Notes under the pieces: generated by a model
Told to the model about the DNA's origin: nothing
What the model saw: the letters and a program-made list of their open reading frames with translations, nothing else
Database searches by the model: none
Assembly: GCF_020405225.1 (NCBI RefSeq)
Contig: NZ_CP084472.1
Span: 2,046,001 to 2,110,000 of the forward strand
DNA from: Natrinema sp. DC36
GTDB taxonomy: Archaea > Halobacteriota > Halobacteria > Halobacteriales > Natrialbaceae
Reading direction: 5' to 3'
Length of the DNA: 64,000 bases
Shown: positions 8,796-38,352 of the stretch, in pieces
Numbering within the stretch: position 1 is the stretch's first letter
Layout of the letters: every line of letters begins with the position of its first letter
Position numbers and translations under genes: made by a program

Positions 8796-8843
8796 TCAAC
8801 TGTTATTACACCGGAGTTTGATGGCGTTGTATAGAGACAACAC

Positions 8844-9805: not shown

Positions 9806-10926
9806 TGACCGACAAAGACCCTGCGCAGATACGACAAGAGAAGTTTGGCATCGAAAACGACCCGCTGGCTGAAGAGGAGTCGATGTTCTTGGAAATCGAG
9901 GAAGACGGGATGATCGACCCGTTGGAAGAGTATGTTCAGAAAATTCAGGAGAAGGCAACTAACAACGTCGATGAAACGGTTGGACATTACAGGCGGACGT
10001 TCCGCCAATGGAGAGAGCACATGGAGGGAGAAGGTCGTCACCCCGCTTGCCCGCACAAGTTCCATGTCCTCCGCTTCATCGACTATTGGCTTGAACAGGG
10101 GAACAAACCGAGTACCGTGCGCAAGAAAGTGGAGCGGCTTGAGAACGCTTACAAATGGTGGCAAGTTGCGAATTTCCCGCACGAATCCGAGTACAATCCG
10201 ATTGCAGCTGCAACGGAAGAGCGGTATTTGAAAGATGATGCTAAACCGGAATATCAAAAGAAGAAACCCCCACGAGTGTCACTCGATAAGGTTCGAGAAA
10301 TTGTGCAAGGTATCGAAGATGTTGCTGACCGGGCAATCGTCGGGCTTCAGCTGAAACTCGGATGCCGTTCGAGCGAATTAGCGAATATCAAGCTGTCTGA
10401 AATCCATATTGATCACCCGGACGTGCTCGAGTACTACCCGATGATGGGGTCTCACGAAATGCTTGAGGGACGCCCGAATGCAGTAGTCATCCCGCACAAT
10501 CGGGAGTTGAATAAGCGGGCACGTCCGACGGTGTTGCCGCTGGATGTGGAGTCTCGGAAGTTGTTGATTGATTGGCTATTGGTGCGTCCGGATACTGGTG
10601 ATGAGTGGGTGTTCATGACGCATAAGGGCGAGCAGTTGAATCGGACGGATATCCGGTATATTTGGACGAAGTACTGGTGGCCTGAATACGAGTTTGATGA
10701 GGATGATCAGTTCCGGTCGGTGACACCGCACTTCGCTCGACATCGGTTCGGTACGTACTGGAAGACAGATTTGAATGGCGTGAATCGTGAGCTTGTCAAG
10801 TATATGCGCGGGGACAAGACAGACAAGAGCGTTGGCAAGGATCATGACGCCCTCGATCACTATGTGCACACGTACTACGAGGATATTGAAGAGTTGTACG
10901 AAAAGATGTACCAGCTGTACGTCTAA
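9805..10926 (+). CDS. Tyrosine recombinase/integrase (373 aa)
   Basis: This enzyme would catalyse integration and excision of the element by site-specific strand exchange. Residues ~40-135 are the core-binding domain (VGHYRRTFRQWREHM, PSTVRKKVERLENAYKWW). The catalytic domain carries the first Arg in LGCRSSELANI, the H-x-x-R in TPHFARHRFGTYW, a following YMRGDK turn and the nucleophile in DALDHYVHTYYED. The usual residues are therefore present. The gene is last in the module, overlaps its neighbour by one base, and lies at the element's right edge, as expected for an att-adjacent integrase. A T-run after the stop (about 10,947) may end transcription. Confidence 0.9.
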   Translation: MTDKDPAQIRQEKFGIENDPLAEEESMFLEIEEDGMIDPLEEYVQKIQEKATNNVDETVGHYRRTFRQWREHMEGEGRHPACPHKFHVLRFIDYWLEQGNKPSTVRKKVERLENAYKWWQVANFPHESEYNPIAAATEERYLKDDAKPEYQKKKPPRVSLDKVREIVQGIEDVADRAIVGLQLKLGCRSSELANIKLSEIHIDHPDVLEYYPMMGSHEMLEGRPNAVVIPHNRELNKRARPTVLPLDVESRKLLIDWLLVRPDTGDEWVFMTHKGEQLNRTDIRYIWTKYWWPEYEFDEDDQFRSVTPHFARHRFGTYWKTDLNGVNRELVKYMRGDKTDKSVGKDHDALDHYVHTYYEDIEELYEKMYQLYV

Positions 10927-15091: not shown

Positions 15092-17326
15092 ATGAGTTCG
15101 TCGGAATCGGACGGCGTCACGTTGTCGGTTCGCGCTGCCGAAAAGGGAGACGCCGGCCGGGGCGTCGCGCGAATTCCCGAACCGGTGCGGCGACAGCTCG
15201 GCATTCTCAGCGGCGACGCCGTCGTGATCGAGGGCGAGGAATCGACGGTCGCCAAGATGTGGCCCGCCGACCCGTCGGTCCCCGACAACGCCATTCAGGT
15301 CGACGGCGATACCCGAGCGAACGCCGGCGTTCACGTCGGTGACACGGTTACCGTCCGGGCGAAAGACAAGTCGACCATCGCCGACGCCGATCGGGTGACG
15401 CTCGTCGCACCGTCGGGACTCGCCGAGAGTCAGCGACGGGCCGCCGAAAACAGCGCGACGGAGAAACTCCGCAATCGACCGGTCCGTGCGGGGGAGCAGG
15501 TCCGGATCGAAGGGATCGATCAGCAGCCGTTCCGGGTCACCGACACGGATCCCGACGGTGACGTTCGAATCACGAGCGGGACGACGGTTCGGCTCGCCGA
15601 CCTCGAATCGAGACCGGACGCCACTCCGAGTTCGAGCACGACGGGATCCACCGGCCGCGGCCGACAGTCGGACGGATCCGCCGGAGCATCGGCCGGTTCC
15701 GACTCCCAACTCGAGGCCGAAACGGCCGAACTCGATCCGGGATCCGGCGTCACCTACGAGGACATCGGCGGCCTCGACGAGGAACTCGAGCTGGTCCGCG
15801 AGATGATCGAGCTCCCGCTGTCGGAGCCGGAGCTGTTCAGACGCCTCGGCGTCGAACCGCCGTCCGGCGTCCTGCTGTACGGCCCGCCGGGCACCGGGAA
15901 AACGCTGATCGCACGCGCCGTCGCCAACGAGGTCGACGCCGAATTCGAGACGATCTCCGGGCCGGAGATCATGTCGAAGTACAAGGGTGAGTCGGAAGAA
16001 CAGCTCCGAGAGACGTTCGAGAAGGCGCGCGAGGAGGCCCCGACGATCATCTTCTTCGACGAGATCGATTCGATCGCCGGCACGCGCGACGACGACGGAG
16101 ACGCCGAAAATCGGATCGTCGGCCAGCTACTGACGCTGATGGACGGCCTCGACGGCCGCGGCGAGGTGATCGTCATCGGCGCGACCAACCGGGTCGACGC
16201 GATCGACCCCGCGCTCCGGCGCGGCGGCCGCTTCGATCGCGAGATTCAGATCGGCGTCCCCGACGAGACCGGGCGCCGGGAGATCCTCGAGGTCCACACC
16301 CGTGGGATGCCGCTGGCCGACGACGTGGATATCGACGCGATCGCGCGCCGGACCCACGGCTTCGTCGGCGCGGATCTCGACGCCGTCGCGAGCGAAGCGG
16401 CGATGGCAGCCATCCGCGATCGCCCAACTGAGACCGACGACCGCCGCGAGTGGAACCGAGATCCGACCGTCCGAAAGCGCCACTTCGACGCCGCGCTCGC
16501 GTCCGTCGAACCATCGGCGATGCGCGAGTACGTCGCCGAGTCGCCGACGACCGACTTCTCGGACGTCGGCGGCCTCGACGAGGCGAAGCAAACGCTCCGG
16601 GAGTCGGTCGAGTGGCCGCTGACCTACGACCGACTGTTCGAGGAGACGAACACCGATCCCCCCTCTGGGGTCCTGCTCTACGGCCCGCCCGGAACCGGGA
16701 AAACGCTGCTCGCGCGCGCACTGGCGGGCGAGACCGACGTCAACTTCGTCCGCGTCGACGGCCCCGAAATCATCGATCGATACGTCGGCGAGTCGGAGAA
16801 GGCGATCCGCGAGGTGTTCGAACGCGCCCGCCAGTCCGCCCCGTCAATCGTCTTCTTCGACGAACTCGACGCCATCGCGGCCGCTCGAGGCGACGGCCAC
16901 GAGGTCACCGAGCGCGTCGTCTCGCAGCTCCTGACCGAACTCGACGGAATGCGGGAAAACCCCAATCTCGTCGTCCTGGCCGCGACTAACCGCAAAGATC
17001 AGATCGACCCGGCGCTGCTCCGGCCCGGTCGCCTCGACACCCACGTCTTCGTCGGCGAGCCCGATCTGGACGCCCGCGAGAAGATTCTCGCGGTTCACAC
17101 GCAGGGCAAACCGCTCGCCGACGACGTCGATGTCAACGAACTCGCGGCCGAACTCGAGGGATACACCGGCGCGGATCTCGAGGCGCTGGTCAGAGACGCC
17201 TCGATGCGGGCGATTCGAGAGGTCGCCGCAGAGTCAGACCCCGAAACGGCCAACGAGCGGGCCGACGAGGTCCGAATCGAGCGACGACACTTCGAGGCCG
17301 CGGGGGAGTCGACCGACCGAACGTGA
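15092..17326 (+). CDS. Divergent Cdc48-type AAA+ ATPase (744 aa)
   Basis: This is a tandem AAA+ unfoldase of the Cdc48/p97 family. The N domain is at ~8-170 (double-psi barrel with RGVARIPEPVRRQLGI). An unusual Ser/Gly/Thr/Asp-rich linker of about 45 residues (173-217) follows. D1 has Walker A GPPGTGKT at 264-271 and Walker B IIFFDEID near 319-326. D2 has Walker A at 531-538 and Walker B IVFFDELD. The D1 arginine-finger segment is RRGGRFD, where family members normally have RRPGRFD. The start at 15092 is chosen because the sequence before it overlaps the Bat-like gene in another frame. A second, more canonical Cdc48 lies at 21759-23987. Confidence 0.88.
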   Translation: MSSSESDGVTLSVRAAEKGDAGRGVARIPEPVRRQLGILSGDAVVIEGEESTVAKMWPADPSVPDNAIQVDGDTRANAGVHVGDTVTVRAKDKSTIADADRVTLVAPSGLAESQRRAAENSATEKLRNRPVRAGEQVRIEGIDQQPFRVTDTDPDGDVRITSGTTVRLADLESRPDATPSSSTTGSTGRGRQSDGSAGASAGSDSQLEAETAELDPGSGVTYEDIGGLDEELELVREMIELPLSEPELFRRLGVEPPSGVLLYGPPGTGKTLIARAVANEVDAEFETISGPEIMSKYKGESEEQLRETFEKAREEAPTIIFFDEIDSIAGTRDDDGDAENRIVGQLLTLMDGLDGRGEVIVIGATNRVDAIDPALRRGGRFDREIQIGVPDETGRREILEVHTRGMPLADDVDIDAIARRTHGFVGADLDAVASEAAMAAIRDRPTETDDRREWNRDPTVRKRHFDAALASVEPSAMREYVAESPTTDFSDVGGLDEAKQTLRESVEWPLTYDRLFEETNTDPPSGVLLYGPPGTGKTLLARALAGETDVNFVRVDGPEIIDRYVGESEKAIREVFERARQSAPSIVFFDELDAIAAARGDGHEVTERVVSQLLTELDGMRENPNLVVLAATNRKDQIDPALLRPGRLDTHVFVGEPDLDAREKILAVHTQGKPLADDVDVNELAAELEGYTGADLEALVRDASMRAIREVAAESDPETANERADEVRIERRHFEAAGESTDRT

Positions 17327-21758: not shown

Positions 21759-23987
21759 CTACTGGAAGCCGATGCGGCTGCCGCGGCGACCCGTCGGATC
21801 GGGGCCGCTCGTGCCGCCCTGGAACTCCTCTTCGATCTGCTCGTAGTAGTCGAGGATGTCGTCGGTGATCGTCGGCCGGACGTTCTCCATGGCCTGTCGG
21901 AAGTGACGCATCTCGACGATGTCGGCCTCCTCGTCCTCGCGGAGGGCCTCGATGGCCGCCTCGCGAGCGATCGACTCGAGGTCGCTACCGACGTAGCCGT
22001 CCGTGATCTCGGCGATCTCGCGCAGCGTGACGTCGGCGGCCAGCGGCGTGTCCTCGGTGTGGATCTCGAGGATGCGTTCGCGACCGTCGACATCGGGTTG
22101 GCCGATCATGACCAGTCGGTCGAACCGGCCCGAGCGCAGGAGTGCGGGGTCGATCATGTCCGGTCGGTTGGTCGCGCCGATGACCATCACGTTCTCCATG
22201 TCCTCGAGTCCGTCGAGCTCGGTCAGCAGCTGGTTGACGACCCGCTCGGAGACGTTCGAGCCGACCTCACCGCCTCGGCCCGGTGCGAGCGCGTCGAGCT
22301 CGTCGAAGAAGATGACCGTGGGAGAGACCTGTCGCGCCTTGCGGAAGGTCTGTCGGATGGCCTTCTCCGATTCGCCGACCCACTTCGAGAGCAGTTGCGG
22401 GCCGCGCACGGAGATGAAGTTCGCGTTGGTCTCGTTGGCGACGGCCTTCGCCATCAGCGTCTTCCCGGTCCCCGGCGGGCCGTAGAGCAGGACGCCGGCG
22501 GGCGGGTCGACGCCCAGCCGATCGAACCGCTCGGGATTGGAGAGCGGCCACTCGACGGACTCCTGGACCTGATCTTTGGCGTCCTGCAGGCCGCCGACGT
22601 CGTCCCAGGAGATCTTCGGGAGTTCGACGAGGACCTCCCGCATCGCCGAGGGTTCGACCTCGTTGAGCGCCCCGCGGAAGTCCGTCCGCTTGACGATCAT
22701 CCGATCGATCAGGCTCGGCGGGATATCCTCCTCGTCGAGATCGATCTCGGGAAGGTAGCGTCGGAGCGCCTTCATCGCCGCCTCCTTGGTCAGGCTCTCG
22801 ATGTCAGCACCGACGAAGCCGTGGGTCTCGTCGGCGAGGTGGCCGAGGCTGACGTCGTCCGAGAGGGGCATGCCGCGGGTGTGGATCTGCAGGATCTCCT
22901 CGCGGCCCGTCTCGTCGGGGACGCCGATCTCGATCTCGCGGTCGAACCGGCCGGGCCGGCGCAGCGCGGGATCGACCGAGTCGACGCGGTTGGTTGCGGC
23001 GATGACGATGACCTGGCCTCGCGACTCGAGGCCGTCCATCATCGTGAGGAGCTGGGCGACGACCCGGCGCTCGACCTCGCCGGTGACGTCCTCGCGCTTG
23101 GGTGCGATGGAGTCGAGTTCGTCGATGAAGATGATCGACGGCGACTCCTCGGTGGCGTCCTCGAAAATCTCCCTGAGTTGCTGTTCGGACTCGCCGTAGT
23201 ACTTCGAGATGATCTCCGGGCCAGCGATAGAGAAGAAGCTGGCGGAGGTCTCGTTGGCGACGGCCTTGGCGAGCAGGGTCTTCCCGGTTCCCGGCGGCCC
23301 GTGCAGGAGCACGCCCTGTGGCGGCTCGATGCCGAGTTTCTTGAAGATCTGCGGATGCTTCATCGGGAGTTCCACCATTTCCCTGACCCGCTGGATCTCG
23401 TTTTGGAGGCCGCCGATGTCCTCGTAGGTGATCCCGCCTCCGGTCTTCTCGAAGCCCGAGATCGGCTCCTCGCGGAGTTCGACGTCGGTGTCTTCGGTGA
23501 TGAGGACCACGCCCTCCGGTTCGGTCTCGACGGCTATGAGTGGGATCGCCTGGCCCGGCGATCGCATGAACGGATGGTTCGTCGAGCTCATTACGGGGAC
23601 GATGTCACGTCCGACGACCGGACGCTTGAGGATCTGCCGTTTCACCATGCCCGCGGCATCGGAGCCGAACTGGACCGACGCCTCCTCGGGCGGTGCGAGC
23701 ACGAGCTTGTCGGCTTTCGTCGCTTCGGCCTTCCGAATCGTCACCCGTTCGCCGATACCGACGTCGGCGTTTTGACGGGTGAATCCGTCGATACGGACGG
23801 TGTCCGTGTTCCAGTCCTGCCGGTCCGCACGCCAGACCTTCGCGGCAGTCGTATCTGCACCCTCGATTTCGATGATGTCGCCCGGACTCAGCTTCAGATG
23901 CAACAGCGTGTCCGGGTCGAGTCGGGCGATACCACGACCCGAGTCGTTCGGGTACGCTTTCGCGACCTCCAGTTGGACTTCGTTCAT
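21759..23987 (-). CDS. cdc48: Canonical Cdc48/VCP-like AAA+ ATPase (742 aa)
   Basis: An archaeal p97 homologue that unfolds proteins, probably for the proteasome. The N domain (residues ~3-175) starts [23 protein letters not shown]1 has Walker A GPPGTGKT at 230-237, Walker [10 protein letters not shown] near 285-293 and RRPGRFD near 343-349. D2 has Walker A at 503-510 and Walker [10 protein letters not shown]. The C-terminal tail is acidic then Gly/Arg-rich. Length and motifs are standard, unlike the divergent paralogue at 15092-17326. It is transcribed alone, divergently from larC. Confidence 0.96.
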
Positions 23988-25669: not shown

Positions 25670-26116
25670 TTACGTACTGTTACCGAAGAGGCCTCCGAAG
25701 AGGCTGTCGATGATATTACTGATATCATCGCCGAGAAGACCTTCGTCGTCGTCACTGGCCTCGGCTTCGGACTCGGCTTCGGACTCGGCGTCGATTTCGT
25801 TCGAGGAGACCGTGGTGGTGTCCTCGACGTTGGCGTTGTTACTCTGGTCGACGTCTTGCTGCTGAGCCGCGTTCGTCTCAGCGTAGCTCTTGTCTGAGCT
25901 GCTGTAAGACGTAGCGACCTGCGTCTGCTCGTTTTCGTTCTCCTGATCGACGTCGATGTTAGTCTCCGCGGACGAAGTCTGGTTCACGTCTTCGACTTCG
26001 ACCTCGGATTCAGCTTCGGAGTCGGCCTCCTGTGCGGCTGCTGTTCCTGCGGCGGCTGTGAACATGAGCCCGCCGATTAGTGCTACCGTCAGTGCGAGTG
26101 TGATTGCGCGTTTCAT
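25670..26116 (-). CDS. Secreted Q/N-rich protein with curli-like half repeats (148 aa)
   Basis: A clean signal peptide (MKRAITLALTVALIGGLMF ... AAAQ) ends near residue 29. The mature part starts with an acidic Glu/Ser stretch, then two half repeats, NIDVDQENENEQTQVA and QQQDVDQSNNANVE, that use the same Q-x-x-V-x-Q-x-N-x-N rhythm as the large divergent neighbour. A second acidic run follows, and the end is a hydrophobic amphipathic helix (DDISNIIDSLFGGLFG) that could bind membrane or another subunit. By layout it could be the minor subunit or nucleator of a fibre built from the neighbour; this is inference. Confidence 0.7.
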   Translation of the reverse strand: MKRAITLALTVALIGGLMFTAAAGTAAAQEADSEAESEVEVEDVNQTSSAETNIDVDQENENEQTQVATSYSSSDKSYAETNAAQQQDVDQSNNANVEDTTTVSSNEIDAESEAESEAEASDDDEGLLGDDISNIIDSLFGGLFGNST

Positions 26117-26807
26117 TGATTTCGGTCACCGTATTCGTCATCGGGCAGCACGCGTGTGGACCACAACGGAAGTCAGCTATCACGTGTGACGGCGCTGTCG
26201 CTCGCCGCGCGTAGCGCCGACACCTCCCGGTTCTCCCGCTGTGGCGCGTTGCCCAGTCGCTACTGTTTACAGAGACCCATTTGAACCCGGCAAACGGTTT
26301 CGTCCCGAATCCGCGCGTTGGGACCTGTGTTGTCTTCCCCTATCACAGTGTGATGGTTTTTATCCGAATTTGGGAGGAATTTGACCTCGTTACAGCGACA
26401 CTACATCTCCAATTTCCGGTCGTTTCGAGGACGATATTCGGAACCGCCGTCCCCGAAATGTCGGTCGAGTCAGATAATCGACTGGAAATGTCAGTCGGTA
26501 ATAGCAGCCTGTCATCGGAAAAACGGTTCACAGCGGCGGGACGAGGTGCCCGTGCTGACCGCACGAATCACCGTCCAGTCCCCCGATCGACCGTGCGAAC
26601 CGAACCGTGCTTGCCTCGAGACCGCTTCGGCACACCGTTCTCCGGTCGAAGCCACTGATTACCGGCTATAAGGTATCAGCTTCCCAATTATATCCCGATG
26701 CAACCGAGCTCCAACCTATCGATAACAAAGGTGGTCATCACGGAATGGTGGTTTGCGTCGTAGAGACTCAGAAACGAAAGACACTCACGAAGCAAATCAA
26801 ACGATCA
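26117..26807. promoter_or_regulatory. Long divergent promoter region of the Q/N-rich pair
   Basis: These 691 bases separate the two secreted genes and hold no convincing gene. Short frames here have poor codon use. TATA-like stretches for the rightward gene are GGCTATAAGG (near 26,663) and CAATTATATC (near 26,685), implying a leader of about 100 bases. An SD-like AAGGTGGTC at 26728-26736 precedes an in-frame ATG at 26745. The length of the region suggests extensive regulation. Confidence 0.45.
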
Positions 26808-28364
26808 ATGACAAACGACACGACGAGACGATCACAAGCTACGACACTCCTTCTGTCCTGTATGGTCGCCCTGTCCATGATGGCAGCCGGCGTCCCGGCG
26901 GCCACGGCGGGCGGTGACGGCGACCTCGAGAACGGGACCGTACACGCGCTCGAGGACGGGGAGGAGCTCTACCTGGTCTTCGGTGCCGACCTCGGCGATC
27001 AATCGCTCGAGGAGTACGTCGACCAGCACGCGAGCGGCTCGGCCGACACCGCGGCCGAGGTCATCCAGTATCAGGACGTCGATCAGGTCAACATCAACGA
27101 GCAAGGCTCCGCGGTGTCGATCTCGATCGACGGCGGCGAAGCGACCGCCGTCCAGGAAGCGAACCAGTACAACGACAACGAACAGCGCGGGTCCGCGACC
27201 GCCGAGGACCGCCTCCAGAGCGCGGAAACGCAGTTCGAAAACGTCGGTGACGTCAACATCATCATCGGCGACGGTGGCGACCAGCAGTTCGACGGCTGGG
27301 GAGTCAAAGACAAGAAGGGTGACGACGAGACGGTCACTCAGGAGGCTCTCGCCGCCGTGACGCAGTCACAGGAGGTCGCACAGGTCAACTACAACAACCA
27401 GAGCACCGCGTTCGCGCTGGCGGTTGACGACAGCGACGCGACCGCGCTCCAGCAATCCTACCAGCGCAACGAGAACCTGCAGGAAGGCGTCGCAAACGCG
27501 TCGAACGTCTACCTCGGTAACGGTGACTTCGGTCACAAGAAGGACAAGAGCGGCGATCACGGTCCGAGCGCCGACCAGAGCGCCGACGCGTTGCTCACGC
27601 AGCAACAGGACGTCGAACAGGCGAACCTGAACGAACAGCGCGGTGCCGTCGCCATCGCCGTCGGCGAGGGCAGCACCGCGACCGCGATCCAGTTCACCGA
27701 TCAGAGCAACCTCAACACCCAACTCGGCAGCGCCGACGCCTCGAACCTGCTGGCGTCGTCAGTCGGGATGAACGTCGCGACCGCGGGCGACGTCGGCAGC
27801 GACGTCCTCTCGACCGAAACCGAGACGAAAAAGCCCGACAAGAAGGGCAGCGACGACGGTGCCGAGCAGACGGCGACCGCCGGCGTGGCCCAGGAGCAGG
27901 GCGTCGAACAGCGCAACATCAACCTGCAAAACAGCGCCATGGCCATCGCACAGAACGGCAGCGAGGCCGTCGCCATCCAGATGGCGTACCAGCAGAACTA
28001 CAACGCGCAGATCGGCTACGCCGACGCGCTCAACGTCTACGCGAGTCCGGGCTACGTCTCCGACGAGGTCGCCCGCACCTCGAGTACGACGGTCACCGTG
28101 GACGGTAACTCCGGCTCCGCCAACCCCGGCATGTCGTACGATTACGCCGCCAACGCGACGCAGACGAACGACGTCGATCAAACGGCGAGCGCAGCGATCG
28201 AACAGCACCAGTTCGTCACGCAGGAGAACCTGAACGAGCAGCACACCTCCGTCGCACTCGCTGAAGACGGTGGCAGTGCCGGTAGCTCGCAGATCTCCAT
28301 GCAGGAGAACGAAAACATCCAGCTCACGTCCGTCGCGGCGACGAACACGTGGGTCGAAGCGTAA
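26808..28364 (+). CDS. Secreted curli-like repeat protein, probable fibre subunit (518 aa)
   Basis: A signal peptide (residues 1-34, TTLLLSCMVALSMMAAGVPA core) is followed by five ~50-residue repeats at about 85-132, 184-232, 263-313, 360-409 and 464-513. Each follows the rhythm Q-x-Q-x-V-x-Q-x-N-x-N-x-Q-x-x-A-x-A-x-A, then a second half Q-x-x-x-Q-x-N-x-N-x-Q-x-G-x-A (for example QQQDVEQANLNEQRGAVAIA). Acidic or Lys/Asp-rich spacers separate them. Curli CsgA uses a comparable Q/N ladder in a cross-beta solenoid, so an extracellular amyloid-like fibre is likely, though descent from curli is not shown. The ATG at 26808 was chosen; ATG 26745 would add 21 residues. Confidence 0.78.
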   Translation: MTNDTTRRSQATTLLLSCMVALSMMAAGVPAATAGGDGDLENGTVHALEDGEELYLVFGADLGDQSLEEYVDQHASGSADTAAEVIQYQDVDQVNINEQGSAVSISIDGGEATAVQEANQYNDNEQRGSATAEDRLQSAETQFENVGDVNIIIGDGGDQQFDGWGVKDKKGDDETVTQEALAAVTQSQEVAQVNYNNQSTAFALAVDDSDATALQQSYQRNENLQEGVANASNVYLGNGDFGHKKDKSGDHGPSADQSADALLTQQQDVEQANLNEQRGAVAIAVGEGSTATAIQFTDQSNLNTQLGSADASNLLASSVGMNVATAGDVGSDVLSTETETKKPDKKGSDDGAEQTATAGVAQEQGVEQRNINLQNSAMAIAQNGSEAVAIQMAYQQNYNAQIGYADALNVYASPGYVSDEVARTSSTTVTVDGNSGSANPGMSYDYAANATQTNDVDQTASAAIEQHQFVTQENLNEQHTSVALAEDGGSAGSSQISMQENENIQLTSVAATNTWVEA

Positions 28365-28809: not shown

Positions 28810-30660
28810 ATGGAACTGAACCGTTCTGCTACTATCGGCATCACCGCGTTACTGATAACGTCGCTGTTTGGCGGTGCAGCAGTCTCAGCAGCGACGGAAA
28901 GTGGCCTAACAGCCGACTTCTCCGTGCGCGATGATACGATTGAAACCGGCGAACGAGTCGGCTTTATGGCCGAACCCGAAACGACGAACACGTGGGTGAC
29001 CGATCTCGAGTGGTCGTTCGACGATGGGGCGACGAAGCGCGGTTGGTGGCAAACCCACCGATTTAGCGAACCCGGGAACCATACTATCTCGTTAACCGTA
29101 ACTGACAACACTGGCGCTACGGACACTACTACGGTGACGGTTGTTGTCTCAGGTCCGGGAGACGAGACGAACACAGATAGCGGGACCAACAGCGACACCG
29201 ATTCGACAGCCGAGACGGACAACGAAACCGCGCTCGAGTCGGAGTACGAGACGTGGGACGAAACCGAAGTCTACCGTCACGGTGACCGGGTCGTCTGGAA
29301 CGAGCAGATCTGGGAAGCTCAGTGGTGGAGCCAAGGCGACACCCCTGACAACGCCCGCGTCTGGGAACGCGTCTCGGATCCTGGCGCCAACGATACTGAG
29401 ACCGTCGACGAAACGAGCGATACCGACCGGTCACAGGACGGTACCGAAACCGACGGAACTGACGAATCATCCGACACCAACGACACCGATCAGACCGACG
29501 AGACGGATACTCAAACGGACACCAGTGGCGAGCAACCCAATCGTACGGAGACAGGAGAGTCATCCGAAGACATGCGTATCGTCGGATATTACACGAGCTG
29601 GTCGGTTTACGACCGCAACTACACGCCGAGTGACGTTCCGCTCGACAAGGTGACCCACATGAACTACGCGTTCATGGATGTCGAAGCCGACGGGACGGTG
29701 AGCTACGGCGACGCGAGCGCAGACCCACAGAACCTGGCCGAGTTCCGCGATCTGAAAGCGCAGCATCCGAACACGACGATGCAGTTGTCGATCGGCGGCT
29801 GGTCGTTATCGACTCACTTCTCCGACGCCGCAGCGACTCAGGAGAACCGTGAACGGTTTGCCGAAACGTCGGTCGACCTGATGCAGAAGTATGATTTCGA
29901 CGGCGTCGATATCGACTGGGAGTACCCCGACGGCGGTGGCGCCGCGGACAACAGTGAACGTCCCGACGATCCCGAGAACTACGTACTGCTTCTGGAAGCG
30001 GTCCGTCAGGAACTCGATGCGGCAGAGCAAGCAGACGGTCGGGAGTACGAACTGAGTATCGCCGGCGCGACGGACCCGCACAAAACCGCCGCGCTCGACG
30101 TGCCGGGAATCGCTGCCCAAGTCGACTACGTGAGTGTCATGAACTACGACTACACTGGAACGTGGGACTCGCAGACGAACCACAACAGTAAGCTCTTCTC
30201 CGCATCCGACGATCCGTCGCCGGATCGATTCAACGCCGCTGCCGGTATGCAGGGCTGGGTAGACGAGGGGATGCCGAAAGACAAGCTGGTCTTCGGCGCA
30301 GCCTTCTTCGGGTGGGGCTTCGACGGCGTCCCGGACCAGAATAACGGCCTCTATCAGTCGTTCGACGGCGCTGCCGACGTCGGCTGGAGCGAATCCGGGG
30401 CTACCGACTATCAGTACGTCTCGGAGCTACTCGAGTCGGACTCTTCGTACGAACAATACTGGGACGACGAGGCGAAAGTTCCGTACGTCTATTCCGCTCG
30501 CGACAACGTCTTCATCACCTACGAAAACCCCAAATCGATCGCCAACAAAGTCGAGTACGTCGTAGAAAACGGGTACGGTGGCATGATGTTCTGGGAATTC
30601 TACGGTGACCGCGAAGAGGTGCTTATCGACGAGATCAGTAATACCCTCAACGACCGGTAA
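28810..30660 (+). CDS. Secreted modular GH18 chitinase (616 aa)
   Basis: It hydrolyses beta-1,4 GlcNAc polymers outside the cell. Order: signal peptide 1-28 (TALLITSLFGGAAVSA); PKD-like beta domain 33-115 (WSFDDGATKRGWW; GNHTISLTVTDN); CBM5/12 chitin-binding module 145-190 (YETWDETEVYRHGDRVVW; EAQWWSQGDTP); acidic Thr/Asp linker 191-254; GH18 domain 255-612. The catalytic D-x-x-D-x-D-x-E is at 364-371 (DGVDIDWE), with E371 as acid. SIGGWS and MNYDY are also conserved. It lies between the fibre genes and the polysaccharide cluster. It may be a nutrient-scavenging enzyme or may remodel a GlcNAc-containing matrix. Confidence 0.95.
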   Translation: MELNRSATIGITALLITSLFGGAAVSAATESGLTADFSVRDDTIETGERVGFMAEPETTNTWVTDLEWSFDDGATKRGWWQTHRFSEPGNHTISLTVTDNTGATDTTTVTVVVSGPGDETNTDSGTNSDTDSTAETDNETALESEYETWDETEVYRHGDRVVWNEQIWEAQWWSQGDTPDNARVWERVSDPGANDTETVDETSDTDRSQDGTETDGTDESSDTNDTDQTDETDTQTDTSGEQPNRTETGESSEDMRIVGYYTSWSVYDRNYTPSDVPLDKVTHMNYAFMDVEADGTVSYGDASADPQNLAEFRDLKAQHPNTTMQLSIGGWSLSTHFSDAAATQENRERFAETSVDLMQKYDFDGVDIDWEYPDGGGAADNSERPDDPENYVLLLEAVRQELDAAEQADGREYELSIAGATDPHKTAALDVPGIAAQVDYVSVMNYDYTGTWDSQTNHNSKLFSASDDPSPDRFNAAAGMQGWVDEGMPKDKLVFGAAFFGWGFDGVPDQNNGLYQSFDGAADVGWSESGATDYQYVSELLESDSSYEQYWDDEAKVPYVYSARDNVFITYENPKSIANKVEYVVENGYGGMMFWEFYGDREEVLIDEISNTLNDR

Positions 30661-30752
30661 GTGTAACGAAACACCGAGCGATTACGACGTCGCGCTCGCG
30701 GCGACGTCTCCCGTTCGGTACGGCGTCCTCGAAGGCGGGGTACCGATGTGAG

Positions 30753-31808
30753 TCAGGCGAGGACTGCACCTGGTTGTTCAGTATCGTAGAGGATATCGAG
30801 CGCACAGACGTTTCCGTCCTTCCAGGTCGGTGTCCAGTCCTGAACGCAGACGGTCTGTCCGCGTTTCTCGAACGGAGTTTCGTCGAGATAATTCTCGTAT
30901 CCGACCCCTCCCGTGAGATAGTTGTCACCACCGAGATAGTCGGTCAGACGAGCCAGGTACGCCGACGGATCGCCGGGATGGGTGACCGGAAGCTGGCTGG
31001 AACGGACGACCGTCGACTCGATATCCAATCGGGAGAGCAATTCGTTCAGCAGCGGAACGGTGAGATCGACGAGTCTCACGTCGGCCATGAGTTCACCGGG
31101 GTCGACGCCGTCGAGGTTCCAGAGGCGAGCCATAGAGACATCGGCGATATCTCTCTCAGCAGGGAGCGACGCGGCGAGTGTAACGAGTGTCCTGTTGCAC
31201 CGTTCCCGGAGCGATCGACAGGCGGCTTCCGCCTCGACTAATTTCGTCTGGACCGCTTTACTCTCTGCGACCAGGTCGTCGATATCGGCGGTCGGGTCCG
31301 CGTGCCTTCTCTTGGTGATGCGGTCCGCGAGACGCGTCTTCCGTTCCCGAAGTTCGGGTAACTGATACTCGCGTCGACGGGCTCGCAACTCGTCGTTCAG
31401 CCGCAGGCATTCGTTTACGAGGTCCCGCTCTGCGTATCGAGCGATCTCGTCACGACACCGTCTGAGTGTTTCAATTTCGACGAAGTCAGCACAGAGGCGT
31501 TCGTAGAAGGGCCGAAACTCGTCCACTGCCGCTCCGTACTCTCGGCGAAGCGTCTTGACGTGGTCAACGGGCCACGGCTCCGACATATCGATGCGGGCCT
31601 CGTCGATTCGAACGTCGCTACTAGTATGGCGAACGGGTATCGTGAGCCAACCCTTGTCGGAAAGATCGATCGGCGTTCTGTGTTGGCGAGACCGCCGGGA
31701 GAATTCTACGTCGTCGTAGATAACAAAAATATCCGCCTGTTTTATCCGTGCGAAGTAATGGAGCCGGGGGTAATAGTGCGGCTGATACGCTGTAACCGTT
31801 CTACTCAT
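30753..31808 (-). CDS. WbqC-like family protein (351 aa)
   Basis: The N-terminus (YQPHYYPRLHYFARIKQADIF; YDDVEFSRRSRQHRTPI) and C-terminal blocks (YLGGDNYLTGGVGYENYL) match the WbqC family, found in glycan gene clusters. These proteins are thought to help modify amino sugars of surface polysaccharides. Between the two ends is a long charged helical insert (residues ~145-225, RRREYQLPELRERKTRLADR), which makes this protein longer than most family members. It lies at the far end of the leftward polysaccharide cluster, 111 bases after the PIG-L gene. Confidence 0.8.
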   Translation of the reverse strand: MSRTVTAYQPHYYPRLHYFARIKQADIFVIYDDVEFSRRSRQHRTPIDLSDKGWLTIPVRHTSSDVRIDEARIDMSEPWPVDHVKTLRREYGAAVDEFRPFYERLCADFVEIETLRRCRDEIARYAERDLVNECLRLNDELRARRREYQLPELRERKTRLADRITKRRHADPTADIDDLVAESKAVQTKLVEAEAACRSLRERCNRTLVTLAASLPAERDIADVSMARLWNLDGVDPGELMADVRLVDLTVPLLNELLSRLDIESTVVRSSQLPVTHPGDPSAYLARLTDYLGGDNYLTGGVGYENYLDETPFEKRGQTVCVQDWTPTWKDGNVCALDILYDTEQPGAVLA

Positions 31809-31919
31809 GGGGAGGTTCTTTCGAGACTAACCAGATATATTCTCACACTCGTTTACCCGATAAACGCCGTCCAGATACATCTAATACGGTTTTAGCGGGG
31901 AATAAGCGGCTATTTCGAA

Positions 31920-32603
31920 CTACCGTCTCCGCTCCAGCAGTAACTCGAAGGGCTCGGCGGCGTATAATCCAGCTTTCTCCCCCCAGAGGTAGCTGTTGTT
32001 CCGAATGCTTCGGGTGCTTCGCGGATGCGGGGAATCCTCGATCTCGTCCTCGTAAACCGAAAGTGCGTCCATCTTTCGGTCCAAATATTCGTCGATATCG
32101 ACGAACACCGTCGGTTGGAATGCAGTGTCCGCCGTGGGGATCGCCCATTCCGTGGACGACAGCGACTCGAACGAGAGAATGCGGTTAACGTTCGACCCGG
32201 CGAGCGGGCGCGCCGCGGTACGCACGGCGCGAGCAGCAATCTGGTGATCGACGTTGAGATCTCCGTAGTGATGTGTGTAGATTACGTCGGGCCGGAACGA
32301 TTCGAGTTTCGACTCGATGTCCCGAATCACGTCGATGAGCGCCTCGTCATCGAGTTGGTTTCCCCAGTAATCGAGGAGAGTAACACCTTGAAAACCGAGC
32401 AAATCTCCGATCGTCCGCGCGCGGCTTCTCCGTTCTTCTTGCCGCTCCCTGGCGGCGCCCGTCTCCATTTCGTACCGGGCCATGACGCCGTCACTGAGTA
32501 TCAGCACCTCAACCTCGTCGCCGTCGTCGACGTGCTTGATAAGAGTCCCACCGACACCGATCAGTTCGTCGTCCGGATGTGCGGCCACACAGAGCACACG
32601 CAT
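31920..32603 (-). CDS. PIG-L family N-acetyl-sugar deacetylase (227 aa)
   Basis: The opening MRVLCVAAHPDDELIGVGGT holds the zinc-binding H-P-D-D-E motif. YTHHYGDLNVDHQIAARAV supplies the later zinc His. The family removes acetyl groups from N-acetylglucosamine-type sugars or their conjugates. Next to WbqC, it fits an amino-sugar modification step: deacetylation followed by other acylation. It lies in the leftward glycan cluster but is separated from the xylanase-like gene by about 290 bases, so it may have its own promoter. Confidence 0.9.
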   Translation of the reverse strand: MRVLCVAAHPDDELIGVGGTLIKHVDDGDEVEVLILSDGVMARYEMETGAARERQEERRSRARTIGDLLGFQGVTLLDYWGNQLDDEALIDVIRDIESKLESFRPDVIYTHHYGDLNVDHQIAARAVRTAARPLAGSNVNRILSFESLSSTEWAIPTADTAFQPTVFVDIDEYLDRKMDALSVYEDEIEDSPHPRSTRSIRNNSYLWGEKAGLYAAEPFELLLERRR

Positions 32604-32905
32604 CTTTCATGGAGAGAGACCGATCGCAATGAACCATGTGATGGTTTCGACCCATAGCGACGGAATTACTCGCACCTCTGGTGGAAACGATCGCAGTCGT
32701 GCTCGGAAACATGGTATTCCTTGACATCCGATAACGGATAGGAGTCCGTTCCCTCAGCTCAATTCCTCAGGTCGAACTCGCGTAGAACGGGGGAACATGA
32801 ATGGCTCGTCACGCGTGCGACTCGAGAAGCGACGTTCGACCGTCTCCCGCAGTCGGAACAGCACGGCGTAACGGAGAACGCCTCGCTCTTTAAGGCGAGG
32901 ATGAT
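32604..32905 (+). other. Gap with IS200/IS605 (IS1341-type) end scar
   Basis: No intact gene is seen. CCTCGC (32881-32886) and GCGAGG (32895-32900) form a hairpin around TCTTTAAG, like the ends of haloarchaeal IS1341-type elements. The frame leading into it (HGVTENASLFKARM) looks weakly like the C-terminus of a TnpB protein. It may be the last trace of such an element. The hairpin also covers the stop codon of the leftward GH10-like gene and could act as its terminator. Confidence 0.4.
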
Positions 32906-34389
32906 TCCGACTCGAATTGGATCCTGACAGTTTCGCTCGCTGTCGGATCATCGAGCGTCACGGACGTCGTTTTTCTGTCGCCGTTGGCAGTCGCCGTTAT
33001 CTCGTAGTCACCCAGGAATCCGCTGGTACTGAACCGCCCATCGGACCCCGTTCGTCCCGATTCCTGCGTCCACCACTGATCGAATACCAACCCAGTATAC
33101 ACGTCGTAGGCCGGCTTTCGCGACCAATCCTCTCGAAACAGTGGGGCATTATTCTGCCAGTGGATCGCGTCCCAGAACCCCCACATCGTAAAGCCGTCAA
33201 CGACTGGATGACTGAACACCGTCTTCAGGAACTCGTAGAGGTATTCCGCCTCGCGATCTTCCGTCCACTCCGTCCCCCACGCGTCGTATTCGGTTATTTG
33301 AATCGACGGAACGAGCTCGGCGAATCGGTCGAGGGTCGAGAGCAATTCCGAGGGCGATCGTCGCTGCTCTTCCCTCCAGTGATGACCCTGCATACCGATC
33401 CCCTCGAGCGGCGCATTGTTTTCCCGTGCGTAGGTGACGATCGCTTCGAGAGCGTCCCGTTGTTCGTCGTTGTCTCCGACGAGAATTTCGTATTCGTTGA
33501 CGTAGAGACGGGCATCGGGATCGGCATCCGCCGCGATTCGATACCAGTCGACGATCTTCGGAGCGCGGGTGGACGGCGCGTCCGGATCGATGAGGTCGGT
33601 CATCTCGTGGAATTCCACGGGCTCGTTCAACACGTCCCACTCGGTGACGTTCTCGGCTCCGCTATGGGTACCGACGATGTCCGAGACGTGCTCGTCGCTA
33701 CGCGATTCGATGTATGCGCCGTCGCCCGAGTTCATCGCCTGAAGGACGTCGTCCGGGATCGCACCCTGGTTTCGCCGTTGCCAGATACAGGTGTGCCCCC
33801 GTAATTCGAGTCCCCGATCGAGAAGCCACCAGGTCGCGGTTTCCGCGGACTTCCGATGGGACGGTATTTCCCAGAAATTCCACTTGTGACGGTTCTCCAG
33901 AACGGCCTTATTGAACAGGTCCGTGATCGCCGTTCGATACTCGTCACCGGGATCGGTTTCCTCGACCAGATGCGCTGCGTTGACTGCGGTTCCGAACCCG
34001 AAAGCGTGGCGTTGCATCTCGACCGCCACGCGTGCGTCCGCGATCGGATCCCCCCGTTCGTCGGCGACGACGACCTCGAGCGGCGCGGTTCGATGTCGTC
34101 GGATCCGCTTGTCTGCCGCTGTTTCCCAGGACGAGTCGGCACTCGCGTCACCCGCTTCCCCATTGGGACCTCCTGCTACCGTTCCGTTATCGCCGCGGTG
34201 TTCGTTTCCCCGCTGGCGAATCGCACAGCCGGCGGTGACCGTCAGTCCGCCGAGACCCAGTCCCTCGAGAATAGCGCGTCTGGAAACCCGGTCGGGGGCG
34301 CCGTCGGTTTCACCGCTGGTCCCGAGCACGTCTCGATCGGTATCGTCACCGTCCGTCACTACCCATCGCCTCCGGTCACGGGAATTCAC
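32890..34389 (-). CDS. Tat-exported GH10-like endoglycanase (499 aa)
   Basis: The N-terminus has a twin-arginine signal (SRRAILEGLGLGGL, R37-R38) with a possible lipobox Cys at C55. After a charged region and a small Ig-like part, the GH10 barrel carries the acid/base E256 (EWDVLNEP), the nucleophile E367 (QITEYDAWG) and HTCIWQR. The C-terminal ~60 residues are beta-rich (GDYEITATANGDRKT). GH10 enzymes usually cut xylan, but here the gene overlaps the deacetylase in a polysaccharide cluster. It may therefore trim the cell's own exopolysaccharide. The stop lies inside an IS-like hairpin. Confidence 0.88.
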   Translation of the reverse strand: MNSRDRRRWVVTDGDDTDRDVLGTSGETDGAPDRVSRRAILEGLGLGGLTVTAGCAIRQRGNEHRGDNGTVAGGPNGEAGDASADSSWETAADKRIRRHRTAPLEVVVADERGDPIADARVAVEMQRHAFGFGTAVNAAHLVEETDPGDEYRTAITDLFNKAVLENRHKWNFWEIPSHRKSAETATWWLLDRGLELRGHTCIWQRRNQGAIPDDVLQAMNSGDGAYIESRSDEHVSDIVGTHSGAENVTEWDVLNEPVEFHEMTDLIDPDAPSTRAPKIVDWYRIAADADPDARLYVNEYEILVGDNDEQRDALEAIVTYARENNAPLEGIGMQGHHWREEQRRSPSELLSTLDRFAELVPSIQITEYDAWGTEWTEDREAEYLYEFLKTVFSHPVVDGFTMWGFWDAIHWQNNAPLFREDWSRKPAYDVYTGLVFDQWWTQESGRTGSDGRFSTSGFLGDYEITATANGDRKTTSVTLDDPTASETVRIQFESESSSP

Positions 34390-35677
34390 CCGCTTTGAGC
34401 GCTGATAGCCACTCGCCCGTCGTTACCACGGTGACGTTCTCGGCATCGTGTACGTACCGTACCGTCTCCTCGAAGTCGGACTGAGAGATCCCCTCCGACG
34501 AACCGACGGTATGATACATGATCGGTATCACGCAACTGTACCGCTGTGCACGATCGATCATCGTCCGCACGAAGTCGACGGCCTCGCCGTTGACCCGACC
34601 GCAGAGTAACGGTGACGTGATCCCCGCGCCGTACCCCGCCGTCGGCACTTTGAATCCGAGATCGTGGTACTTCGAGACGACTCCGACGTTCTCGTCGTTA
34701 ATCTCGCCAAACGGGTATATAATGTACTCGCTCCCTTCGTATCCGCGCTCGGACAGCCACGTTTTGTACCTCCGAAGCGTCGACTCGAGCTTCGAGGGAC
34801 TCATCTCGGCGAACGTCTGCGAACCGTGTGGGTGACTACACAGTTCCCAGCCGTTGTCCGCGAGAATATCGATCTGTGACTGGTTCATGTGTCCGTCCGC
34901 CCCGATCTCGGGGAGAATAACGCCGCCCGTGGCACGGTAGCCGTACTCCGTGAGAATCGGAAACGCGTTCGTGTACGCCCCTTCGTAGATATCGTCGAAA
35001 TGAAAGAGGACGTAGCTCTCGGGTGCGGCCTCGGTCGTACGGAAATCGTCGATGTAAACCGTCGCCTCGGTGTTTCCCGTCCACACCATGACGTCGATGG
35101 TTTCGATCGCCGAGAGGTCGGGATCGCCGCTGATCGCGTTGATGCCGAGATCGTACCGGTGCCAGTCCCGCAACGTTTTATTTTCGACGTCCTGTGTGAC
35201 TCGAAACCAGTCCCCCGTTCCGTCCCACAACGTCAGAGACACGGGCAGATTTTCGCTAATTCCGGCCCAGGTGTCCCACTTCACCGCGAGGGAAAACGTT
35301 CGGCCTTCGAAATCCACCGGCCGATCGAGCGTCCGTCGTGCGATTCCCTCCCGTTGTTCGTGTCGGGTCTCGAGGACGAGAGAACGCGTGCCTCGCACAC
35401 TCTCGGCGTCGGTCGTTCGAACGGTCCCACCCCACTCCGCCCACGTCTCGGGATCGTTGAGTCCGTCGATCGGGGTTCCCGCGTGCAATCGCTCCGCGAC
35501 GAACGGCGACGAGATATCATAGGACTCCGGATCAAACGTGAAACCGCTCTCGGAACCGTTGTTCGACTCGTTCGGATAATCCGTCGAATTGTCCGACTGC
35601 CAATTGAGACAACCGGCCACCGCTGAAACCGATGCGCTAGCAGCCAGTCGAAGGTATCGTCGTCGTGACTCGTTCAT
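34376..35677 (-). CDS. Lipoprotein polysaccharide deacetylase with N-terminal beta domain (433 aa)
   Basis: A lipobox-type signal (LAASASVSAVAGC, C23) anchors it outside the cell. Residues ~45-215 are a beta-sandwich, carbohydrate-binding-like (RTFSLAVKWDTW; ATVYIDDF). The NodB-like domain starts at ~222 (FHFDDIYEG, D228-D229), then CSHPHGSQTF (H282, H284) and IIYPFGEIND. The His spacing is not the usual one, so the metal site needs checking. It overlaps the GH10-like gene by 14 bases and follows the glycosyltransferase closely, arguing that the three act on one polymer. Confidence 0.85.
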   Translation of the reverse strand: MNESRRRYLRLAASASVSAVAGCLNWQSDNSTDYPNESNNGSESGFTFDPESYDISSPFVAERLHAGTPIDGLNDPETWAEWGGTVRTTDAESVRGTRSLVLETRHEQREGIARRTLDRPVDFEGRTFSLAVKWDTWAGISENLPVSLTLWDGTGDWFRVTQDVENKTLRDWHRYDLGINAISGDPDLSAIETIDVMVWTGNTEATVYIDDFRTTEAAPESYVLFHFDDIYEGAYTNAFPILTEYGYRATGGVILPEIGADGHMNQSQIDILADNGWELCSHPHGSQTFAEMSPSKLESTLRRYKTWLSERGYEGSEYIIYPFGEINDENVGVVSKYHDLGFKVPTAGYGAGITSPLLCGRVNGEAVDFVRTMIDRAQRYSCVIPIMYHTVGSSEGISQSDFEETVRYVHDAENVTVVTTGEWLSALKAGEFP

Positions 35678-35680
35678 GGT

Positions 35681-37288
35681 TTACTTGTTCCAATTGCGTT
35701 TACCGACGAACAGATCCGTCACGACCTGAGCGTAAACGTACACGCCGATCGGTAACTGACAGAGGCGGACCGGTATCGACACGAGAAGCGACGAAATGGT
35801 GATCTGCCGATGGGCGAACAGCCCTGCGACGAGACAGTACAGACCGAACTCGACGGCGATGACTGCCATTACCAACTCGATCGGCACGAGACCGACGATC
35901 GCGAGCAGCCCCACCAGGAGAAGCGCGGTCGGATACAGTCCGTCGATGAGTTGCGACGTGACGACGGCACTGAGCGTTCGGCGTCGGCCGATCCGCCGCG
36001 AGCCGTCGGACGGGTCATCAGTGCTCCGATCGTCGGTCGCTACACCGTCCGACGCGGTCACCTCGTTGGAGTCGTCGGACGAGGAGATGTCCATAGGTGA
36101 GGGCTGGTCATCCGAATCGCCCCGGCGCTTGGATTCCAAGACCGCCTCGTCCGACTCCTCTTCCGTGGGCGTTCGTTCAGCGGATCCAAGGCTGTCCGGT
36201 TCCGTAGTTCCGCCGTCCGTTCCGACAGTGGTGGTCTCGGCCGAGACCGAGTCGATCACCTCGTTCCGGACGATCGTATCGGTCACGTCACCGGTCCAGG
36301 ATCGGAGATGCTCCGAGAATGACCGGAAGTAAAACGAACTCTGGAGAAACGACGAACTCCACAGGTACGTCTGATTCGAGATCGTTCCGAGAGACGGTTC
36401 GACCGTTCGCATCGTCACGTCCGAAACCTGCACGTTCGCGAATCCGCGGTCGACGAGGCTGAATCCAATGAAGATGTCCTCGCTGTTCGTCAGTTGATCG
36501 CCGAGCGACGCCTCGTAATCGTCGAACACTGTTCGGAGCGCCGACCGATCGTACAGTACTCCACAGCCGGCCGGAAATAACGACGTCTTGATCAGTCGCA
36601 TCTGCGACTCCTTGAAAAACTGTTGTTCGATCGCGTACAGGACGGATCGATACTGCTCGACCGGCCACCATGCGAGAAGATAGGAGGCGCGATCGGTCCA
36701 GGGTCGGTCGCCGTCGATCCATTCCGGAGCGGCTTCGGTAACGATGCGCTCGTCCGGCAGTATCGGCTCTAACTCGCGTCGGTGGAACGATCTCTTCGCG
36801 GAACGCGAATCGGGACGAACGACGCCGAACGAACAGGCGACGTCTTCGGCGTCGTGAGCGGCGACCACTCGTTCGAGGTAGGTCTCGCTCACGAGGTAGG
36901 TGTCCGCATCGAGGACGAATATCTTGTCCGCAGTGCTGTTTCGAGTCACCTGTTTGAGCCGCTTCGTCTTACTGCCCGAATCGGCGTGTCGGACGAAATC
37001 CATCTCGAGGTCGAGGTCCGCTCGATCTCGCATCGCTTCGACGATCTCCGCGGTCGCATCGGTGGAGCCGTCGTCGACGATCGTCACTTTCTCGGGACGG
37101 TACGACTGCCGCGCTAACGAAGCGATCGCGTAAGCGATCGTCTCCGCTTCGTTTAACGCCGGAATGAAGGCTTCGACCGTCGGCTCCGACTCGCCGTCCT
37201 CGGGAAGCGGCAGCGGTGACTTGGCCAGATAGCCGTATATCCCGAGGACGATCGAAAGACCGGGGACGAACAGTATCGCTACGTGCAT
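35681..37288 (-). CDS. Membrane glycosyltransferase family 2 (535 aa)
   Basis: The start at 37288 begins with one membrane segment (MHVAILFVPGLSIVLGIYGY). The GT-A domain has FIPALNEAET, VDDGSTDAT (71-79), the D-x-D in LDADT (127-129) and an E-D pair in NSEDIFIGF (270-271). The Q-x-x-R-W box of processive synthases appears as QTYLW (306-310), with Leu for Arg. An acidic Ser/Asp insert (~345-420) precedes C-terminal membrane helices (YPTALLLVGLLAIVGL; LVMAVIAVEFGLYCLVAG). It is likely the polymerising transferase of the cluster, making and exporting the glycan. The gene begins one base after the epimerase stop. Confidence 0.88.
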   Translation of the reverse strand: MHVAILFVPGLSIVLGIYGYLAKSPLPLPEDGESEPTVEAFIPALNEAETIAYAIASLARQSYRPEKVTIVDDGSTDATAEIVEAMRDRADLDLEMDFVRHADSGSKTKRLKQVTRNSTADKIFVLDADTYLVSETYLERVVAAHDAEDVACSFGVVRPDSRSAKRSFHRRELEPILPDERIVTEAAPEWIDGDRPWTDRASYLLAWWPVEQYRSVLYAIEQQFFKESQMRLIKTSLFPAGCGVLYDRSALRTVFDDYEASLGDQLTNSEDIFIGFSLVDRGFANVQVSDVTMRTVEPSLGTISNQTYLWSSSFLQSSFYFRSFSEHLRSWTGDVTDTIVRNEVIDSVSAETTTVGTDGGTTEPDSLGSAERTPTEEESDEAVLESKRRGDSDDQPSPMDISSSDDSNEVTASDGVATDDRSTDDPSDGSRRIGRRRTLSAVVTSQLIDGLYPTALLLVGLLAIVGLVPIELVMAVIAVEFGLYCLVAGLFAHRQITISSLLVSIPVRLCQLPIGVYVYAQVVTDLFVGKRNWNK

Positions 37289-37289
37289 C

Positions 37290-38348
37290 TTACACCTCGC
37301 GTGCGTAGGGCTGAGTCGATCGTTCCATCGAGTCGGCCACCTTCCGAATTCCGGCGGGGAGCGGTGTTCGCGGCGTGTAATCGAGTAACTCTCCGGCCTT
37401 CGTGATGTCCGCACACCGTCGCTCAACTCGATACGGACGCGGATCGTCGGTATGGACGATTCGACCTTGCCCGATGACGTCGACGACTACCTCCGCGAGC
37501 GTTCGGATGCGACACTCGATACCGGTACCAACGTTGAACGTTTCGTTTCGGCCGGCAGGACCGAGGGCGCGGACCGTCGCATCGAGTGCATCGTCGATGT
37601 AGGTGAAGTCCCTCGTTTGCTCGCCGCTTCCGTAGACGGGGATGGAACCGTTCGCGAGCGCGCGGCGGACGAACTTCGGAACGACGTAGCCGTCGGTCGA
37701 TCCGTCCTGATCGGGCCCGTAGACGTTGAAATATCGAACGATCGTGTACGGGATATCGGCCTGTTCGCAGTAGCCTTCGACGTACCGTTCGTTGACGGCT
37801 TTCGCGACGGCGTAATTCGTCTTCGGTGCGATCGGACCGTCTTCCCTGTAGGGCGGATCGACGAGATCACCGTACATCTCCGATGTCGACGTGAACAGAA
37901 CACGGTCGACCCCCGCTTCGACAGCTGCCTCGAGAACCGCCCGGGTTCCCTCGACGTTGACCTCGAGCGTGCCGATCGGATCGTCCAGCGTTCGTTGGAC
38001 GCCGGCCATCGCGGCCATGTGCACGATGACGTCCTGATTGCGGAGGACGTCCGAGACGAGTTCACCGTTGCGAACGTCTGCGTCTACGACGGTGATGTCT
38101 CCGATATCGTCGATGTTTCGCCGCGATCCGCTGGTAAAGTCGTCGAGAACCGTTACGTCCGCGTGGGGTGCGAGCCACCGCGCGAAGTTCGATCCGATGA
38201 ACCCCGCACCGCCGGTGACGAGGATGCGCCGCCCCGCGAGGTGGTCGATCGATCCGACCCCTCGATCCTCGCGGCGGCCGTGACGCCCGTCCCGCGGTTC
38301 CGACCTCGGTCGGGCCGAGTGTCTCATCGACGTGTCGTGTGTCGTCAT
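37290..38348 (-). CDS. NAD-dependent sugar-nucleotide epimerase/dehydratase (352 aa)
   Basis: This is an SDR-family enzyme with the nucleotide-binding TGGAGFIGS at 45-53 and the catalytic Y179-x3-K183 (TNYAVAKA). DxxD-like DVRN and a substrate segment (GYVVPKFVRRALANG) follow. It probably interconverts UDP-hexoses (4-epimerase type); the exact substrate cannot be told. The first ~35 residues are an unusual Arg/His-rich tail, so a shorter start at IDHLAGRR is possible. It lies between the sugar dehydrogenase (4-base gap) and the GT2 (1-base gap) in one operon. Confidence 0.9.
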   Translation of the reverse strand: MTTHDTSMRHSARPRSEPRDGRHGRREDRGVGSIDHLAGRRILVTGGAGFIGSNFARWLAPHADVTVLDDFTSGSRRNIDDIGDITVVDADVRNGELVSDVLRNQDVIVHMAAMAGVQRTLDDPIGTLEVNVEGTRAVLEAAVEAGVDRVLFTSTSEMYGDLVDPPYREDGPIAPKTNYAVAKAVNERYVEGYCEQADIPYTIVRYFNVYGPDQDGSTDGYVVPKFVRRALANGSIPVYGSGEQTRDFTYIDDALDATVRALGPAGRNETFNVGTGIECRIRTLAEVVVDVIGQGRIVHTDDPRPYRVERRCADITKAGELLDYTPRTPLPAGIRKVADSMERSTQPYAREV

Positions 38349-38352
38349 CGTC

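Follow-up and report, generated by a model that had tools for sequence, protein, structure and literature searches.

A divergent gene pair of Natrinema sp. DC36 encodes secreted Q/N-ladder repeat proteins, a candidate haloarchaeal family of fibre-forming beta-solenoids

Analysis of a 64,000-nucleotide stretch of the Natrinema sp. DC36 genome (contig NZ_CP084472.1, positions 2,046,001 to 2,110,000, hereafter the window) revealed a divergently transcribed pair of previously unannotated genes, whose exported products are carried by most relatives within the same family. We favour, with about even confidence, the explanation that these proteins belong to a new family in haloarchaea and are secreted as wide beta-solenoids whose stacking gives cross-beta fibres, the small protein being a minor subunit. 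The pair had been interpreted from its sequence as a curli-like fibre system (hereafter the original prediction), and this interpretation is partly supported.

The large gene (26808..28364, forward strand, ATG at 26808, stop at 28364) encodes a secreted five-repeat Q/N-ladder protein of 518 aa, and the start at 26808 is supported by some orthologues having an in-frame stop just upstream. Sequence and alignment place a Sec-type signal peptide and its junction at about residues 1-35 (26808..26912). The original prediction of a signal peptide and five repeats of about 50 residues was confirmed, the repeats being 51-52 residues long. On the forward strand they occupy residues 85-135 (27060..27212; two ladders, predicted rung 1), 184-234 (27357..27509), 263-314 (27594..27749), 360-410 (27885..28037) and 464-514 (28197..28349), and because the chain ends four residues past repeat 5, no C-terminal cap is apparent. 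The mature protein contains 10 Q-x-N-x-N-x-Q ladders, two per repeat as had been claimed (10 of 10), while composition-preserving shuffles yielded at most 2 (20,000 shuffles). The A-x-A-x-A tracts described behind the ladders are also real, with a difference in phase: they are offset by one residue after ladder 1 and in phase after ladder 2. The repeat motif is Q-x-Q-x-V-x-Q-x-N-x-N-x-Q.

This architecture is strongly conserved. Among large proteins, almost all repeat copies are 51-52 aa long, nearly all proteins have exactly five of them, and the linkers in between vary from 11 to 81 aa. In alignments of large proteins from diverse haloarchaea (29 sequences, and again with 50), the invariant columns are mostly ladder Gln/Asn and interior alanines. 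In the repeat profile, positions of one uncharged, nearly invariant face (Q/N/A, with some V/G) take turns with variable positions that are often charged; the phase shifts between residues 15 and 18, and a D/N-G-S/G turn lies at mid-repeat. Pairwise dN/dS of the large gene against eight Natrinema relatives was about 0.17-0.25. In most members of the clade with Sec-type signals only a few residues follow rung 5, as a conserved tail resembling A-T-N-x-W, PGF-CTERM-like anchors were found in five to seven orthologues, and a sister clade carries Tat-type signals on the large protein (14 of 58 loci).

The small gene (25670..26116, reverse strand), divergent from the large one, encodes a secreted one-repeat partner of 148 aa. 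Its signal peptide (MKRAITLALTVALIGGLMFTAAAGTAAA; 26033..26116, reverse strand) is conserved across the small family. The ladder core, at residues ~50-98 (25823..25969, reverse strand), consists of a c-like half repeat followed by a degenerate a-like one. The rhythm of the large protein had been said to occur twice here, which holds for one full ladder (QENENEQ), whereas the second is degenerate (QQQDVDQSNNA). The hydrophobic C-terminal helix also noted before is visible in the sequence (25682..25744, reverse strand) and is shared by no more than a few close Natrinema relatives. The small family is fast-evolving, diverse and often tandem, with a characteristic signal peptide common to its members. 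Its profile aligned to the large-protein repeat with an hhalign probability of 96%, and with the repeat HMM 26 of 113 small proteins, but 0 of 113 shuffled ones, exceeded 15 bits, which shows, at the level of sequence, that small and large proteins share a homologous repeat. A few small proteins hold one complete repeat (e.g., at loci L160 and L168, 46-47 bits). In others, including that of Natrinema sp. DC36 by eye, the order of the half repeats appears to be permuted, with the second half first; the scores are modest, so the pattern is suggestive. Some larger members of small-gene clusters (L061:6933-7898, L062:13803-14924 and L065:5477-6187) contain an extra cysteine-containing domain between or after the ladder segments, possibly a functional head group. 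Weak Pfam/NCBIfam matches of the small protein (presenilin, SecF etc.) fell below curated cut-offs and were rejected as composition noise.

Of 391 genomes sampled from the class Halobacteria, 85 encode the large protein, comprising 79 of the 99 genomes of its own family (Natrialbaceae) and a few in other families. The closest named orthologue is that of Natrinema zhouii (91% identical), and named hosts include Natrinema, Haloterrigena, Natrialba, Natronorubrum, Natronococcus, Halopiger, Halobiforma, Haladaptatus, Halalkalicoccus, Halogranum, Halegenticoccus and Halocatena. No relatives of the large protein were found outside the class in a sparse 345-genome sample of the phylum, and tblastn against IMG/VR gave no viral relatives. 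Plasmid copies of the large protein in PLSDB are annotated as hypothetical or PGF-CTERM. Within Natrialbaceae the two genes co-occur, an outcome in favour of the original prediction: of the 79 genomes that encode the large protein, 67 also encode the small one, against 0 of the 20 that lack it (P-value = 5e-13, Fisher test, genomes counted without phylogenetic correction). Small genes, one to four in number, lie divergently upstream at 39 of 44 Sec-type large loci, the nearest usually ~0.5-0.7 kb from the large gene, but at only 1 of 14 Tat-type loci.

The divergent intergenic region in the window is 691 bp long (26117..26807), and many relatives have one of ~0.5-0.7 kb. It contains short conserved blocks, GAACCCGG-AAACGGTTTCG near the small gene and GATAACAA and CAGAAACGAAAGACACTCACG before the large gene, which suggest shared regulation of the pair. 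The pair often sits between a LarC-like/CDC48-like gene pair and other housekeeping genes, and the large gene is also found at other sites, including plasmids. The window encodes two CDC48/VCP-like AAA ATPases ~4 kb apart (15092-17326 and 21759-23987), of which the second keeps conserved synteny with the LarC-like gene beside the Q/N pair. The CDC48-like ATPase and LarC-like neighbours were rejected as parts of the system and regarded as conserved housekeeping synteny. Adjoining the large gene on the other side (28810-39648) are genes for a GH18 chitinase with PKD and CBM5/12 domains, a WbqC-like protein, a PIG-L deacetylase, GH10, a polysaccharide deacetylase beside a GT2 glycosyltransferase, and then sugar-nucleotide enzymes, a cluster that resembles a matrix polysaccharide locus. 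Because it recurs only loosely elsewhere, it was left out as functional evidence. The left end of the window (1-10900) has a GC content of 0.51-0.58, compared with ~0.65 to its right, and many short ORFs, and looks like an integrated element. In Natronorubrum bangense (L121, L122), a letter-identical 19.5-kb segment with large and small genes occurs both on the chromosome and in an 828-kb plasmid record, either a recent duplication or an assembly artefact.

Two AlphaFold2 models were obtained, model 1 for the large protein (50 sequences) and model 2 for a Halogranum orthologue 43% identical to it (32 sequences). Both have ten strands of ~21-31 residues (about 25), forming two long arms per repeat, with repeat pLDDT of ~80-95 and pTM of 0.56 (model 1) and 0.62 (model 2). 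The linkers are predicted to be disordered (mostly pLDDT <50), and a low-confidence helix is predicted ahead of repeat 1, neither model having a confident N-cap. As DSSP is blind to the difference between an antiparallel hairpin and a stacked beta-arch, structural comparisons matter here, although Foldseek significance was low for all matches of both models. Model 1 had only two Foldseek matches in PDB, CsgA (E 0.18) and FapC (E 0.43), both insignificant. By VIA-align it matched CsgA over 97 residues (Z 2.9, rmsd 2.8, below the range proving a shared fold), with all five repeats set against a 118-residue CsgA stretch of about five curlin rungs; FapC was absent among the VIA-align matches listed for this model. 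The best matches of model 2 were the parallel beta-helices of SufB/SufD (Z 8.4-8.7, 150-156 residues), again involving all five repeats. Its match to CsgA reached Z 7.2 over 118 residues, but with rmsd 8.2 and likewise below the range proving a shared fold, and a PL6 lyase, FapC (Z 2.5) and a yeast adhesin followed with Z <3. Matches in BFVD were insignificant, and side-chain size complementarity across the two arms, which would prove face-to-face packing, was not supported (r 0.1). The models thus agree with the beta structure originally expected, their nearest solved structures being beta-solenoids including CsgA, and the large protein is predicted to be a parallel beta-solenoid of five rungs, each unusually wide.

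Curlin repeats measure 23 ± 5 aa, carry the motif N-x-psi-x-psi-x-Q-X-G-X-X twice and number 4 to 62 per protein (PMC10192328). Curli CsgA/CsgB form a beta-solenoid whose Gln/Asn ladders point inward while variable polar residues face outward (PMC10192328), and the large Q/N-ladder protein is predicted to resemble them in this. Both systems also combine a repeat protein with a minor partner, and CsgA ranks high among the structural neighbours of either model. In contrast, repeats of ~23 aa with the curlin motif, a variable repeat number and CsgG-dependent export, all typical of curli, do not hold for the pair. PF07012 (curlin repeat) matched neither the large nor the small protein at E up to 5, nor any of 41 single repeats, and hhalign gave a probability of 2.8% between large-protein repeats and haloarchaeal curlin repeats. 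CsgG (PF03783) was absent from the whole genome at E up to 1, control genomes giving matches, so that the lack of a CsgG-like export gene, first noticed in the window, extends genome-wide. Taken together, the Pfam and hhalign results, the repeat length and the missing CsgG led us to reject curlin membership. Genuine curlin-repeat proteins, with PF07012 above the cut-off, do exist in two genomes from a single genus of Natrialbaceae (L101:1300-2037, reverse strand; L102:994-1617, forward strand). They have a signal peptide and 19-residue repeats of the form N-D-A-D-V-D-Q-R-N-x-A-x-V-x-Q-D-G-x-N, are followed by a gene for a conserved 258-aa secreted protein, and possibly belong to a separate archaeal curli system.

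By analogy, the architecture closest to the large protein is that of FapC of Pseudomonas, not CsgA. The cryo-EM core of FapC comprises residues 45-96, 110-161 and 173-234, that is, ~52 residues for repeats 1 and 2; the number of repeats is exactly three in 94% of FapC proteins, the linkers between them are disordered and differ in length, and each layer is shaped by conserved Asn/Gln residues that form a network (PMC12392863). Both proteins are therefore alike in having imperfect repeats of about this length in fixed or nearly fixed number (five of 51-52 aa in the large protein), variable disordered linkers and conserved Asn/Gln, and a second repeat protein is encoded nearby in each case (the nucleator FapB for FapC). 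FapC differs in its three repeats, its motif GN-G-N-aaG-gNqQN, its Greek key of five short strands in place of the two long arms in our models, and the export genes of the fap operon itself. Moreover, neither the repeat profile nor the large protein matched any PDB chain at E up to 10, though PDB includes FapC structures. Because the two differ in sequence, repeat number, layer fold and export, the large protein may be said to work like FapC, a claim of similar design and not of membership in Fap. Among archaea, an extracellular amyloid-like beta-arch assembly is formed by the Methanospirillum sheath protein SH, which belongs to another lineage and builds 400-nm rings of the cell sheath (PMC10593813). 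In Haloferax volcanii, staining of the biofilm matrix by Congo red and by thioflavin T points to amyloid outside the cells; no responsible structural amyloid gene was shown, HVO_1403 being only proposed (PMC4180959). The Q/N-ladder family need not explain this staining, since most other haloarchaeal families showed no trace of it in the genomes sampled. A literature search, with most subscription journals outside its reach, found no paper describing the family.

A possible mechanism can be outlined from these features. The large subunit would be exported by Sec, and the absence of CsgG would be no obstacle in an archaeon, because archaea have no outer membrane to cross. Each 51-52-residue repeat would fold as one wide rung with two arms of ~22-25 residues, and the rungs would lie in parallel register, with invariant Gln/Asn and Ala ladders inside, variable acidic or polar residues outside, and disordered linkers looping out between them in a FapC-like way. 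Ending right after rung 5, the chain would present an open beta edge, which is plausible for most of the Sec clade given where the chain stops. Through such edges, subunits would most likely stack end to end to build, at the cell surface, a cross-beta filament or coat that one-repeat small proteins may join as minor subunits, acting as nucleator, end piece or variable decoration. The small-subunit role and a biofilm or surface function of the pair are likewise what we infer. In its fullest form, to which we give a little less than even credence, the proposal is of an undescribed archaeal functional amyloid: channel-free five-rung subunits making surface fibres at very high salt, seeded or decorated by diversifying one-rung partners, some of them apparently half-repeat-permuted.

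Fibre formation by the large protein is, in our judgement, evenly balanced, chiefly against a reading in which the same five-rung beta-solenoid is secreted as a non-polymerising monomer, such as a surface adhesin, matrix binder or coat, with the small proteins as diversified ligands, caps or accessory factors. To this we assign roughly one part in three of our belief. The repeat number fixed at five, the Tat-type signals of the sister clade and the PGF-CTERM-like anchors of several orthologues cut against simple unlimited fibres, and the predicted folds are at least as like the non-polymerising SufB/SufD beta-helices as CsgA. A fixed repeat number together with the possible low-confidence helix before repeat 1 could point to a monomer that is closed and capped at one end. 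The Tat-clade protein probably folds before export, an awkward order of events for an amyloid, and the scarcity of adjacent small genes in that clade also counts against our favoured reading. Against the monomer stand the lack of an apparent C-terminal cap in most of the Sec clade, the lack of a confident N-cap in both models, and the one-repeat partners, which suit stacking onto an open edge.

The other explanations are considerably less probable. Each repeat might instead be a long beta-hairpin of ~25 residues in antiparallel sheets, with Q/N pairing across its two strands; the DSSP strings alone fit this equally well and the QNNQ ladders would be in register across the hairpin in every repeat, but the structures matched over the full set of five repeats are beta-helices or solenoids of the parallel kind, and we consider it improbable. 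Still less credit is due to a true but divergent archaeal curlin (CsgA/CsgB) system. The resemblance to a Q/N-ladder beta-solenoid, the presence of large and small subunits and the genuine curlin-repeat proteins of related haloarchaea speak for it, and it is opposed by the PF07012 and hhalign results, the repeat length and the genome without CsgG; membership of the curlin family was not supported, FapC being the closer comparison. Least credible is low-complexity, Q/N-rich halophilic sequence with no defined fold. It would suit the predicted disorder of the linkers and the acidic, compositionally biased nature of halophilic proteins, but for the repeats it is contradicted by the conservation seen in the sequences, namely invariant ladder columns, fixed repeat length and dN/dS about 0.2, as well as by the shuffled controls.

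The Q/N-ladder family is a concrete, widespread and genetically simple two-gene amyloid candidate in culturable Natrinema and relatives, and the solenoid prediction for the large protein is open to direct checking. If fibres do form, archaea would have come to the principle of stacked Q/N rungs known from curli and FapC, doing so under very high salt and with no outer-membrane secretion channel. Even without polymerisation, a major haloarchaeal family would possess here a family of surface proteins that is strongly conserved yet unannotated.
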